Source: a bacterium
GTDB lineage: Bacteria > Cyanobacteriota > Vampirovibrionia > Gastranaerophilales > Gastranaerophilaceae
Assembly: GCA_017541465.1 (NCBI GenBank)
Contig: JAFXYZ010000011.1
Coordinates: forward strand, 1-38,014
Direction of reading: 5' to 3'
DNA: 38,014 bases
In this document: positions 1,151-38,014 of the stretch, one piece after another
Numbering within the stretch: the first letter of the stretch is position 1
Layout: each line of letters begins with the position of its first letter
Notes under the pieces: model-generated
Database searches by the model: none
What the model saw: only the letters and a program-made list of their open reading frames with translations
Told to the model about the DNA's origin: nothing
Translations under genes and position numbers: made by a program

Positions 1151-1241
1151 ATTATCAGAGAGATTGAGAAAAGTACCCCCGGAAGTTTGAGAGTGTAGAT
1201 TATCAGAGAGATTAAGAAAAGTACCCCCAGAAGCTTAACAA
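1146..1241 (+). repeat. Two tandem 48-bp repeats resembling an IS21-family end
   Basis: Two adjacent copies, 1146-1193 and 1194-1241, match at about 42 of 48 positions. Each starts TGTAGATTATCAGAGAGATT and carries AGAAAAGTACCCCC. IS21-family elements are known to have multiple repeated sequences at their ends, starting with TG, and I associate the AAAAGTACCCC core with that family. No istA or istB gene is present, so this would be a solo end or deletion scar. The assignment to IS21 is inference; the repeat itself is directly visible. Confidence 0.55.
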
Positions 1242-10420: not shown

Positions 10421-10486
10421 AAATGATATAATTCCAACAATATATTTAATTGAGGAAATTATATCATTCATGGAAAAATTTGTCAT
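10421..10486 (-). promoter_or_regulatory. Efflux-operon promoter with overlapping inverted-repeat operator
   Basis: On the minus strand a -35 box ATGACA (10486-10481) is followed after exactly 17 nt by a perfect -10 box TATAAT (10463-10458). The -10 lies inside one arm of an inverted repeat: arms at 10421-10435 and 10454-10468 (AAATGATATAATTCC and GGAAATTATATCATT), matching over about 14 bp with one bulged base and an 18-nt spacer. The second arm falls downstream of the expected transcription start. A repressor bound here would block RNA polymerase. A transcription terminator for the upstream repeat-protein gene is less likely, since the hairpin has no following U-run on the minus strand. Confidence 0.65.
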
Positions 10487-10508: not shown

Positions 10509-11006
10509 TTAATACAGGGAATCATTCGATATGAATTCTGTCGGGACATATTCACCATTGTTGTTGTAGCCGTATTCTATTCTCTGATCGCCGAACTGAA
10601 CGGGAACATATTCGAGTTTATTGTTGTAACCGTATTCAATTCTCTGGTCGCCGACAGAAACGGGAACATATTCAAGTTTATTGTTGTAACCGTATTCAAT
10701 TTTCTCATCACCTATGGATACGGGTACATATTCAAGTTTGTTATTGTAACCGTATTCAATTCTTTGGTTGCCGATAGAGGTTGGAACGTATTCACATTTG
10801 TTGTTGTAGCCGTACTCAATGTCCTCAGAGCCGAAGGAAACGGGAACATACTGACATTTGTTGTTGTAGCCATACCCAATACTCCCGGAACGGCGAGAGG
10901 CAGGGGTATAATACCCTTTGTTGGTATAGCCGCAGTCGATTTCCTTGCATTTTGCCGAGATTTTTGATAAAAAGAATAAAACTAAAAGAAAAATAATAAC
11001 TTTCAT
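10509..11006 (-). CDS. Secreted protein of seven 20-residue tandem repeats, function unknown
   Basis: A 165-residue protein with a signal peptide (MKVIIFLLVLFFLSKISA, probable cleavage after Ala18) followed by seven 20-residue units from residue 23 onward. The consensus is IEYGYNNKLEYVPVSIGDQR; Tyr, Gly, Asn, Val-Pro and a Gly near position 17 are the conserved points. The repeat is exact at DNA level with period 60 bp. Units 1-3 are more diverged and hold the later cysteines (unit 1, 2 and 3 each have one), while units 4-6 are nearly identical, which suggests recent unit duplication. I do not recognise the family; short beta-hairpin units are plausible. AGGAGG lies well placed before the ATG. 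It precedes the efflux operon but is separated from it by that operon's own promoter. Confidence 0.8.
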   Translation of the reverse strand: MKVIIFLLVLFFLSKISAKCKEIDCGYTNKGYYTPASRRSGSIGYGYNNKCQYVPVSFGSEDIEYGYNNKCEYVPTSIGNQRIEYGYNNKLEYVPVSIGDEKIEYGYNNKLEYVPVSVGDQRIEYGYNNKLEYVPVQFGDQRIEYGYNNNGEYVPTEFISNDSLY

Positions 11007-23389: not shown

Positions 23390-23815
23390 TTACTGATTAT
23401 CAGGTACCTGAGGCGGATTACTTTTGGGAAGCAAGTCCATTATTGATTTAATTATTGGTATAGCAAACGCAATTAATTCAAGCCATGGTTTAATGTTCTG
23501 TGGTGTCAGATTTTTCGCAATATTCGCAACTGATTTTTCAGAAATTTCCTTTTTACAATATGAATCACCATCTTGATTTTTATATTCTGGCTCCATTACC
23601 TTTAAAGAATCAAAAAATGCCTCTTTCGGTGTTTTTCCCTACTCCACCTGAGATAAAAACTCTGCCTGAACACTAAGCACAGCCTCTTTATTTTTCTGAC
23701 TTTTGCTCTTCTCACGAACCGTATCAGAAGACAGTTCTTGTCTATAATTAGTCTTTTGAACAGTAGCTTGTTCAAAAGTATTAGACGAATTAGGACCTAC
23801 TGAAGAAATATTCAT
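23390..23815 (-). pseudogene. Small protein gene interrupted by an in-frame TAG, function unknown
   Basis: From ATG 23815 one frame runs through 141 codons to TAA at 23390, broken only by TAG at codon 59 (23641-23639), inside the context SQVE-stop-GKTPKEAFF. The frame is kept on both sides, so a single base change (for example CAG to TAG) explains it. The N-terminus (MNISSVGPNSSNTFEQ) is polar with no signal peptide; the C-terminus has one hydrophobic stretch (PWLELIAFAIPIIKSIMDLL, about 115-134) and then a Pro-rich end. TAG is a normal stop elsewhere here (3243, 4557), so readthrough is not expected. A shorter product from ATG 23596 is possible but lacks a clear ribosome site. I recognise no family. 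Confidence 0.6.
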
Positions 23816-34346: not shown

Positions 34347-35204
34347 TTAATAATCCGACAGGTTGTATATCATGACAATCCCGTCACCCTGACCTGACGC
34401 ATAGAGAACATCGTTATCTATATTCAGGAAATAAGGCTGGGTGATATTCTCCATAAATACACTACTTCTGCCGGAAGGAGTTATTTTTAAAATATTATTC
34501 CCGTCATAATTGGCGACATAAACATTATCGAGCCTGTCAACCGCAAGACCGATAGGTCCTTTTAAATACCCATCCTGCTGGAATACAACGGCTTTTTTAT
34601 CTTTTGGGTTAATCTTCAGAATTGAGTTATCACCGTAAGATGCAACATAGATAAAACCTTTGGAATCAGACGCAATACCCGCGGGGGCATTGAAGTTATC
34701 AAGAATGGTTCTCTGGTGAACATTTGCGGTCGATGATTTTGTTCTTGTGATGACATCTTTCTGCTCATTGAAGAAAGACATGGCATCGTTTCTTAACTGA
34801 ACAACCTTATCATAATTGCGGTATGAAGAAGGAATATTGTTCAGTAATTTAATACAGTGAGAATAATTTTTTCTGTTATACTGAATTTTAGCCATTTCAA
34901 GTAAAACCGAATAGCTTTTCGGTTCTAACCTGACTATTGATTCATAGCATTCATAAACGTCATCTATCTGTTTTTTGTAAAGATAAATAGACGCAAGGTT
35001 ATAGTAGGCTTCAATCAAAGTCGGATCGGCTTCGGTTGCCTGGGTAAAGGAATTAATCGCACTGTCATAGTCCTTTGCCTTTGAATACTGAACACCTTTA
35101 TTGAAGTACATAATCGCCTGAGTGCTTCTGGGCGAATACCCAAAAGCTACTGACGATATAAGCAAACTCCCCAAAATTATTAAAGAATAAAATATTTTTT
35201 TCAT
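34347..35204 (-). CDS. Exported TPR and NHL-repeat protein
   Basis: A 285-residue protein with a signal peptide ([22 protein letters not shown], cleavage near residue 22), TPR repeats (about 30-130; AIMYFNKGVQYSKAKDYDSA and EAYYNLASIYLYKKQ) and a C-terminal NHL/SMP-30-like beta-propeller part (about 165-285; blades SKGFIYVASYGDNSILKINP, DRLDNVYVANYDGNNILKIT). With only three blades visible the propeller is incomplete, so it may dimerise or be a short variant. It probably acts in the periplasm as a scaffold. Its start shares one base with the gatA stop (TAATG), so it is co-translated with gatA, which seems functionally unrelated. Confidence 0.85.
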   Translation of the reverse strand: MKKIFYSLIILGSLLISSVAFGYSPRSTQAIMYFNKGVQYSKAKDYDSAINSFTQATEADPTLIEAYYNLASIYLYKKQIDDVYECYESIVRLEPKSYSVLLEMAKIQYNRKNYSHCIKLLNNIPSSYRNYDKVVQLRNDAMSFFNEQKDVITRTKSSTANVHQRTILDNFNAPAGIASDSKGFIYVASYGDNSILKINPKDKKAVVFQQDGYLKGPIGLAVDRLDNVYVANYDGNNILKITPSGRSSVFMENITQPYFLNIDNDVLYASGQGDGIVMIYNLSDY

Positions 35205-36682
35205 TATGCCCTGATTAAACTACCTCTCATATAGTCAAATTTTACAACACCTTCAAGCATGTGGGCAACATTTAACAATTTTGTTTCATTAAAATTATTT
35301 GCAAGAAGCTGAAGTCCTATCGGCATGCCTGTTGAATCAAGTCCGACAGGAATACTCATTGCGGGAAGTCCTGCAAGGTTTGCGGTAATAGTACCGATGT
35401 CGGTTAAGTACATAGCAAGCGGATCAGAGACTTTTTCACCCAACTTAAATGCAGTAAACGGACATGTGGGCGAAAGAAGTACATCGACCTGTTTAAAGGC
35501 ATTATCAAAGTCTTTCTTGATTAATCTTCTTATCTGCTGAGCTTTTTTATAGTAAGCATCATAGTAGCCTGAGCTCAGTGCATAGGTTCCGAGCATTATT
35601 CTTCTCTTAACCTCAGGTCCGAAGCCTTCAGCACGGGTTTTCATATACATGTCAATTAATGTCTGCGCATCTTTTGTGCGGTAGCCATACCTAACACCAT
35701 CGAATCTTGCGAGGTTAGAACTTGCTTCTGCTGTTGCAACGATGTAATAAACAGCTATTGAATATTTAATCAGAGGAAGTGAAATCGGTACAAGTTCTGC
35801 TCCGAGTTCTTCATATTTCTTCATCGAATTTTCGATTGACGATTTAACATCAGGCGCTAAACCTTCTGAGCATAATTCTTCAATGTATCCGATTTTTACG
35901 CCTTTAAGTGAGTTATTAAGTCCTTTTGTATAATCTTCAACAGCTAAATCGGAGGATGTAGAATCGTGGTAGTCATGACCTGAGATAGCATTTAAAAGAA
36001 GTGCGGCATCTTCGACTGTTCTTGCGAACGGACCGATTTGGTCAAGTGATGAAGCAAAAGCAATTAAACCGTATCTTGAAACTCTGCCGTAGGAAGGTTT
36101 TAAACCGACCAAACCGCAGTATGAAGCGGGAAGTCTGATACTTCCGCCCGTATCCGAGCCGAGAGCAAGAGTGGCTTCGCCCGAAGCAACTGCAGCTGCG
36201 CTTCCGCCCGAGCTTCCGCCAGGAACTTTTGAAGTATCCCAGGGGTTTCTGACAGGTTTATAGGCTGAGTTTTCATTACTTGAACCCATTGCAAACTCAT
36301 CGAGGTTTGTTTTACCGATTATGGGAATTAAGTTTTCTTTTAGTTTTGTAACGACAGTTGCATCATAAGGGGAAACGAAGTTTTCTAAGATTTTGCTTGC
36401 AGCGGTTGTTTTTGAGCCGATTAAGTTCATATTATCCTTCAGCGCAAGAGGAATACCTGCAAGCGGAGGAAGTTCTTCGCCCTTTGCTATTTTTTCATCA
36501 ACTGTTTTTGCGGTTTCAAGTGCGTTATCTTTGGTTAAAGATAAATAAGCGCCTATTGTTTCATCGTTTTTTGAAATGTTTTCATAAACTGCATTAACGA
36601 GCTCGACCGCACTGACTTCTTTGTTTAAAAGAGCTTCTCTTTGCTCTTTTGATGATTTTAAAACTAATTCCTTAATATCCAT
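35204..36682 (-). CDS. gatA: Glutamyl-tRNA(Gln)/aspartyl-tRNA(Asn) amidotransferase subunit A
   Basis: A 492-residue amidase-signature enzyme, the glutaminase subunit of GatCAB, which converts misacylated Glu-tRNA(Gln) or Asp-tRNA(Asn). The catalytic Lys is in PLALKDNM (about 80), and the Ser-cisSer-Lys signature is in [20 protein letters not shown] to [13 protein letters not shown] (about 150-185). [20 protein letters not shown] and [12 protein letters not shown] are GatA-typical. AGAGGG is well placed before the ATG. gatB and gatC are not adjacent, so they must lie elsewhere in the genome. Confidence 0.97.
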
Positions 36683-36813: not shown

Positions 36814-36844
36814 TTGCTTGAAAAATAAGTTTTTATAGTATAAT
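36814..36844 (+). promoter_or_regulatory. Promoter of the putative small RNA
   Basis: A perfect -10 box TATAAT lies at 36839-36844. The -35 is weak: TTGCTT (36814-36819) at 19 nt or TTGAAA (36818-36823) at 15 nt. Transcription should start near the GGG at 36851. Confidence 0.5.
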
Positions 36845-36850
36845 AAATTC

Positions 36851-36937
36851 GGGTAGAATTTTTATATTACCAAGGAACTTAATATTTTAAGAGAATTGGT
36901 AATGACTCCACAGGTTCCTCGCTTGTGGAGGTTTTTA
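36851..36937 (+). ncRNA. Putative structured small RNA of about 87 nt
   Basis: The region is bounded by a TATAAT box and a terminator, and contains no plausible reading frame. Stem P1 is ATTACCAA (36866-36873) with TTGGTAAT (36896-36903), 8 perfect pairs; inside it is a small hairpin CTTAA/TTAAG (36878-36891). The 3' hairpin CTCCACA/TGTGGAG (36906-36930) is followed by GTTTTTATTATTT, an intrinsic terminator. AGGAA in the P1 loop (36873-36877) is complementary to TTCCT (36915-36919) in the terminator loop, allowing a loop-loop contact. A strong promoter lies after the terminator, so a free small RNA is more likely than a leader of the transporter, but a riboswitch or attenuator cannot be excluded. 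I recognise no Rfam family. Confidence 0.5.
36906..36937 (+). terminator. Intrinsic terminator of the putative small RNA
   Basis: A 7-bp stem (CTCCACA/TGTGGAG, extendable by G-U and G-C pairs) is followed directly by a T-rich run. No plus-strand protein gene ends upstream, so it must end a non-coding or leader transcript. Confidence 0.8.
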
Positions 36938-36953
36938 TTATTTAAGGCATTTT

Positions 36954-36981
36954 TTGACACCCTCGTTTCAGCAAATATAAT
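36954..36981 (+). promoter_or_regulatory. Near-consensus promoter of the ion transporter gene
   Basis: Perfect TTGACA (36954-36959) and perfect TATAAT (36976-36981) hexamers with a 16-nt spacer, giving a start near 36988 and a leader of about 28 nt with a clear ribosome site. Confidence 0.75.
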
Positions 36982-37015: not shown

Positions 37016-38014
37016 ATGGAAAGTTTTCTTGCCTTCTTACACGCAAATGCACTACCGATTACGGCTGCAATTTTGATTATTGCGTATATATTTATTGTAA
37101 TAGATAAAATACCCAAAATGACTATAGCGCTGATAGGTGCGTGCTTCACAATTCTCCTGGGACCTCTTTCCCAGTCACCAAACGCCCCTCATCATCTCTA
37201 TTTTATACATTATATTGATTTTGGGGTTCTTATCCTTTTAATCAGCATGATGATAACAGTTAATATTTCAGCCAAAACCGGAATGTTTGATTATGCGGCA
37301 ATAAAATTAATCAAAGCCACAAAAGGGCATCCTTTCTGGCTTTTGTTTGTTATCGGAGCACTTACTGCCGTTATTTCAGCATTTTTGGATAATGTCACAA
37401 CCGTTATTCTTATGATACCCATATCCTTCATAATCGCAAAGGAGCTTTCAATTTCACCGATACCACTGTTAATAACAGAGATTATCTCTTCAAATATAGG
37501 CGGAACTGCTACATTAATCGGTGATCCTCCGAATATCATCATAGGTTCAAAAGCAGGCTTCACCTTTATGGACTTCCTTCTCGAGCTGACGGATATTGTA
37601 TCCTTCATCTTCGTTGTTTCAATATGTATTTTGTATTACATGTTCAGAAAACAACTCAAAACCACTCCCGAGCAGAGAGCAAATATTCAAAATCTTTCAA
37701 CTGAGGGAATAATCAAAGACAGACAGGGGATGATAAGGTCGATTATTGTTCTTTCCATTATAGTTCTAGGGTTTTTAACCCATGATATAACGCATGTTTC
37801 AAACTATTTAATCGCTCTTCTGGGGGCGAGTATATTGTTATTATTTGAAAAGCCGGAAGAAATTCTTCCTCACGTAGAATGGAATACTCTCTTCTTCTTT
37901 ATGGGGTTATTCACTATTATCGGAGGTTTTGAAGCCGCAGGCGGTATAAAACTGATTGCTCAGTGGGTAATTGACATCACAAACGGTCAACAGAGTGCAG
38001 CATCAATGCTAATC
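37016..38014 (+). CDS. ArsB/NhaD-type ion transporter, 3' end missing
   Basis: The frame is open from ATG 37016 to the window end (333 codons). AAGGGG lies 5 nt before the ATG. The protein is polytopic, with about nine hydrophobic segments visible. The motifs SAFLDNVTTVILMIP (about 121-135) and GGTATLIGDPPNIIIGS (about 162-178) are hallmarks of the ArsB/NhaD branch of the ion transporter superfamily, which includes arsenite exporters and sodium/proton antiporters. There is no arsR or arsC gene nearby, so NhaD-like sodium/proton exchange is slightly favoured, but the ion is not determined. Usual family length is about 420-450 residues, so the last 100 or so are outside the window. Confidence 0.9.
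   Translation, partial: MESFLAFLHANALPITAAILIIAYIFIVIDKIPKMTIALIGACFTILLGPLSQSPNAPHHLYFIHYIDFGVLILLISMMITVNISAKTGMFDYAAIKLIKATKGHPFWLLFVIGALTAVISAFLDNVTTVILMIPISFIIAKELSISPIPLLITEIISSNIGGTATLIGDPPNIIIGSKAGFTFMDFLLELTDIVSFIFVVSICILYYMFRKQLKTTPEQRANIQNLSTEGIIKDRQGMIRSIIVLSIIVLGFLTHDITHVSNYLIALLGASILLLFEKPEEILPHVEWNTLFFFMGLFTIIGGFEAAGGIKLIAQWVIDITNGQQSAASMLI

Follow-up and report, generated by a model that had tools for sequence, protein, structure and literature searches.

A candidate lineage-specific small RNA between divergent gatA and ion-transporter genes

Intrinsically terminated trans-acting small RNAs (sRNAs) of bacteria are intergenic transcripts of 50–300 nt that are made from a sigma-70-type promoter, carry a 5' hairpin and end at a rho-independent terminator. 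Yfr1 of cyanobacteria is likewise short; it has two hairpins, a pyrimidine-rich stretch and a conserved unpaired motif between the hairpins. A literature search, performed under a guessed lineage name, found no sRNA study of the lineage considered here. We describe an intergenic locus at 36851–36936 on the plus strand, with an inferred start at a GGG positioned by its -10 box and with a predicted fold. We hold at about even confidence that it is best explained as a short, free-standing transcript, specific to the lineage and some 80–86 nt long.

Promoters and terminator of the intergenic region

The window, that is the whole stretch of 38,014 nt analysed here, contains a gatA-type amidase gene on the minus strand (35204–36682; Pfam PF01425, E = 6.6e-160) and, on the plus strand, an ion/anion transporter gene of the CitMHS/ArsB type, related to ArsB/NhaD (37016–38014, running off the window; Pfam PF03600, E = 5.9e-67). 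The two genes are divergent and are separated by 333 bases with a G+C content of 27%. Read in the plus direction, the region presents, in order, a -35 element, a TATAAT box, a GGG, an 8-bp stem-loop, a terminator and then the promoter of the transporter.

The elements that the earlier note had described from this region, namely a TATAAT box, a GGG start, an 8-bp closing stem with an inner hairpin and a terminator hairpin with a T-run, were all recovered at their positions to within a base or so. More specifically, the TATAAT box lies at 36839–36844 and is preceded, across a 15-nt spacer, by a -35 element TTGAAA at 36818–36823 (sequence pattern 36818–36844, plus strand), and the GGG at 36851–36853 stands at the distance from the -10 box expected for a transcription start. 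The form TTGNAA-(10 to 16)-TATAGTATAAT has two sites in the organism's own genome, the candidate locus and C56:53963–53989 on the minus strand, the latter preceding GGAGG and the ATG of a reading frame. In relatives, stretches resembling the candidate promoter stand, on inspection by eye, upstream of tRNA genes (L004 and L005) and of an acyl-carrier-protein-like gene (L007); L041 has a similar stretch upstream of the transporter itself. Because the same form precedes genes both in its own genome and in relatives, the candidate promoter appears credible as a housekeeping (sigma-70-type) promoter, with a spacer that is short at 15 nt. As sequence, the candidate has the promoter of its own that is expected of a free-standing, intrinsically terminated sRNA.

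At the other end, an intrinsic terminator spans 36906–36936 on the plus strand, with a 10-pair stem (36906–36915/36921–36930), the loop TCCTC and the tail GTTTTT; the stem is followed by GTTTTTATTATTT. A terminator scan expects 0.2 such elements per shuffled region, and the hairpin folds alone at -15.4 kcal/mol, which accounts for most of the stability of the total fold. As the earlier note had stated, no plus-strand gene ends at the locus, so that the terminator has no gene of its own, as in free-standing sRNAs of this kind. The note was also right that the transporter has its own stronger promoter downstream: a TTGACA-16-TATAAT element at 36954–36981 (plus strand) matches the consensus at 12 of 12 positions and lies 3' of the terminator.

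Because a terminator in the plus direction needs a transcript, and because a suitable promoter stands at the right distance upstream, we infer a short independent transcript; in our own estimate it is quite probable that such a plus-strand RNA is made at all. A sigma-70-type RNA polymerase would start near 36851, and transcription would stop at the intrinsic terminator near 36936. Since no plus-strand gene ends here and the transporter promoter follows the terminator, the region is best read as giving rise to an independent transcript.

Predicted fold and internal pairing

The 90-nt segment that begins at 36851 has a predicted fold of -27.1 kcal/mol (z = -4.36), more stable than those of all 200 dinucleotide shuffles, and the candidate ranks among the top two in structure of the 254 intergenic stretches scanned in the window. 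The first hairpin (36866–36903, plus strand) is predicted with a pair probability above 0.99 and folds alone at -11.4 kcal/mol. It consists of a perfect 8-bp stem, ATTACCAA/TTGGTAAT (36866–36873/36896–36903), a purine 4x4 internal loop GGAA/AGAA, and a weak, A/U-rich inner stem of 5 bp, CTTAA/TTAAG (36878–36882/36887–36891), closed by the loop TATT. The 8-bp stem by itself is unremarkable, since the 38-kb window has 42 perfect 8-bp stems whose loops are no longer than 30 nt, most of them inside genes.

The earlier note had proposed a contact between an AGGAA in the first loop and a TTCCT in the terminator loop. The complementarity itself stands and is longer, AGGAAC (36873–36878) being exactly complementary to GTTCCT (36914–36919). 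The strength of the contact did not hold up: A36873, C36878, G36914 and U36915 sit in predicted stems (U36915 in a wobble pair), which leaves free bases for about 3–4 base pairs. Shuffling the loops gave a match run of at least 6 in 0.8% of cases, and random sequence with intergenic composition did so in 4.0%, figures that precede any counting of other possible contacts and concern a match picked after the fact. A functional loop–loop contact is close to chance level. We consider it very unlikely that the locus encodes a regulatory RNA, specific to the genus, with a kissing contact between the purine internal loop of its first hairpin and the pyrimidine loop of its terminator, such that opening of this contact would free the anti-Shine-Dalgarno loop or modulate termination. 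A second pairing suggested in the note, GGTA with TACC, survives in the nascent chain, where it is optimal only up to about 36895, and fails in the full RNA (-22.0 versus -27.1 kcal/mol; pair probability 0.001).

Other features of the window were recorded in their own right. Between two minus-strand genes, 10422–10468 holds a perfect inverted repeat of 12 bp around a 23-nt loop, within a gap that is a structured intergenic stretch on the minus strand (z about -3), and 10509–11006 (minus strand) encodes a 165-aa protein of about 19-residue repeats (IEYGYNNKLEYVPVSIGD...) after an apparent signal peptide. Two near-identical copies of GTAGATTATCAGAGAGATTRAGAAAAGTACCCCC, at 1147–1180 and 1195–1228 (plus strand) and 48 bases apart, lie in a 600-base gap that has no long reading frame, 5' of a gene at 1302. 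On the minus strand at 23390–23815, the adjacent short frames 23639–23815 (58 aa) and 23390–23596 look like one small gene divided by an in-frame TAG, the frame being open beyond the stop; a pseudogene or a suppressed amber codon is possible, and a strong terminator (23368–23333, minus strand) lies 3' of these frames.

Distribution among relatives and rival explanations

The source genome is the only member of its genus in the collection, and it holds no second copy of the candidate RNA. DNA searches (BLAST) of 59 relatives, 383 family genomes and 382 class genomes found no homologue: the matches inspected covered the promoter only (5' of tRNA or protein genes) or apparently lay inside coding sequence, and the class genomes contributed additional short matches of 20–37 nt. 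A single-sequence covariance model run on 116 relatives and 383 order genomes returned nothing convincing. Its best foreign matches, at 29.6 and 26.6 bits, both lie inside reading frames, and the top one (E = 0.00126 per genome, from the search of 383 genomes) was rejected as such. These homology searches used fast first filters, which a very diverged homologue could escape. The covariance search against Rfam proposed by the earlier note was run as well, and gave chance hits with no fitting family at gathering and at lax thresholds. Viral contigs lacked the exact terminator pattern and matched a loose pattern uninformatively, and the phage and plasmid collections gave no match. With one copy in one genome and no homologue in the genomes searched, the note's suggestion of a possible new RNA is not supported if a new family is meant; promoter, hairpin, terminator and second promoter are still best read together as those of an independent short transcript.

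The flanking genes were followed in the same way. Homologues of the transporter, about 57% identical, are present in 55 of the 59 relatives; a search of GTDB genome contigs with it returned only two Lentisphaerota proteins of 40% identity, and no close relative. In 26 relatives the start of the transporter closely follows its own ribosome-binding site and a promoter-like box, and none of the 26 has a terminator hairpin just upstream of that start. The 29 gatA loci of relatives (two or three of them incomplete) have other neighbours and no such RNA. Neither the arrangement of the locus nor the candidate RNA appears to be conserved.

Because those 26 relatives carry no terminator hairpin at that place, the element is not part of the conserved regulation of the transporter. 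This bears on a leader, attenuator or riboswitch of that gene, in which the terminator would govern read-through from 36851 into 37016. Such a leader would fit the shared strand, the distance of 80 nt to the transporter and a frame that stays open from ATG 36902 into it, but the relatives, the independent 12/12 promoter behind the terminator and the fold energies make it unlikely: the nested AGGAAC:GUUCCU pairing, which as an antiterminator would unfold the terminator, reaches -13.6 versus -27.1 kcal/mol and was rejected as much less stable. A riboswitch, moreover, would have no counterpart among the known Rfam families even at the lax threshold. We see no support for a new class of RNA, for a riboswitch or for a leader that is conserved.

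The same open frame raises the question of a longer transporter protein, starting at ATG 36902 or TTG 36896, in place of a non-coding RNA. Upstream of ATG 37016 the frame indeed runs on for 38 codons without a stop, but homologues align from residues 1–16 of the short form, and a ribosome-binding site and promoter stand directly ahead of their starts, while the extension would enclose a strong terminator and a promoter, and ATG 37016 is itself preceded by AAAGGGGATAAA. The longer frame was rejected on the homologue alignment and the upstream regions of relatives, and we regard it as hardly credible.

The main rival to a functional sRNA is a transcript that has no function or serves as insulation: a promoter would fire outward from the divergent region, the terminator would insulate the transporter, and the short RNA would be a by-product. 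The want of any conservation in the genomes searched, a stem and a loop match near chance level, and the perfect promoter right behind the terminator would all suit this possible, if tentative, account. Against it, hairpin and terminator are unusually stable, beyond an insulator's need, and the missing relatives may only reflect the scarcity of close genomes. As an orphan, the candidate would fit a functionless transcript just as well. If the free-standing transcript has a function, the likeliest is that of an ordinary trans-acting sRNA, with a 5' hairpin that protects it and a terminator hairpin; the UUCCUC loop of the latter could, speculatively, pair with AGGA-type Shine-Dalgarno sequences of messengers.

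Comparison with known small RNAs

Two small and stable RNAs, the bacterial small SRP RNA (RF00169) and 6S RNA (RF00013), might be expected in a genome of this kind. Neither model matches the candidate, which lacks the long hairpin and the length of 6S RNA; the SRP RNA of the genome lies at C17:26298–26383 (51 bits). The RF00013 model detected several controls, including a cyanobacterium, and found no 6S RNA in the whole genome (G000), where that RNA may be absent or too diverged.

Like Yfr1, the candidate is short and has two hairpins and a pyrimidine-rich stretch. Unlike Yfr1, it has only GA between the hairpins, its CUCCACA lies inside the terminator stem, and it has no Rfam match.

If transcribed, the candidate would add another orphan sRNA to its lineage and would leave the general picture unchanged; its main value is as an object to be checked against closer genomes or RNA data. 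It is an ordinary kind of object with real sequence features. It differs from the intrinsically terminated trans-acting sRNAs in that no homologue was found and that the likeness is one of sequence and predicted fold; it resembles them in having its own promoter, in its predicted size, its 5' hairpin and its terminator, and in its intergenic site.
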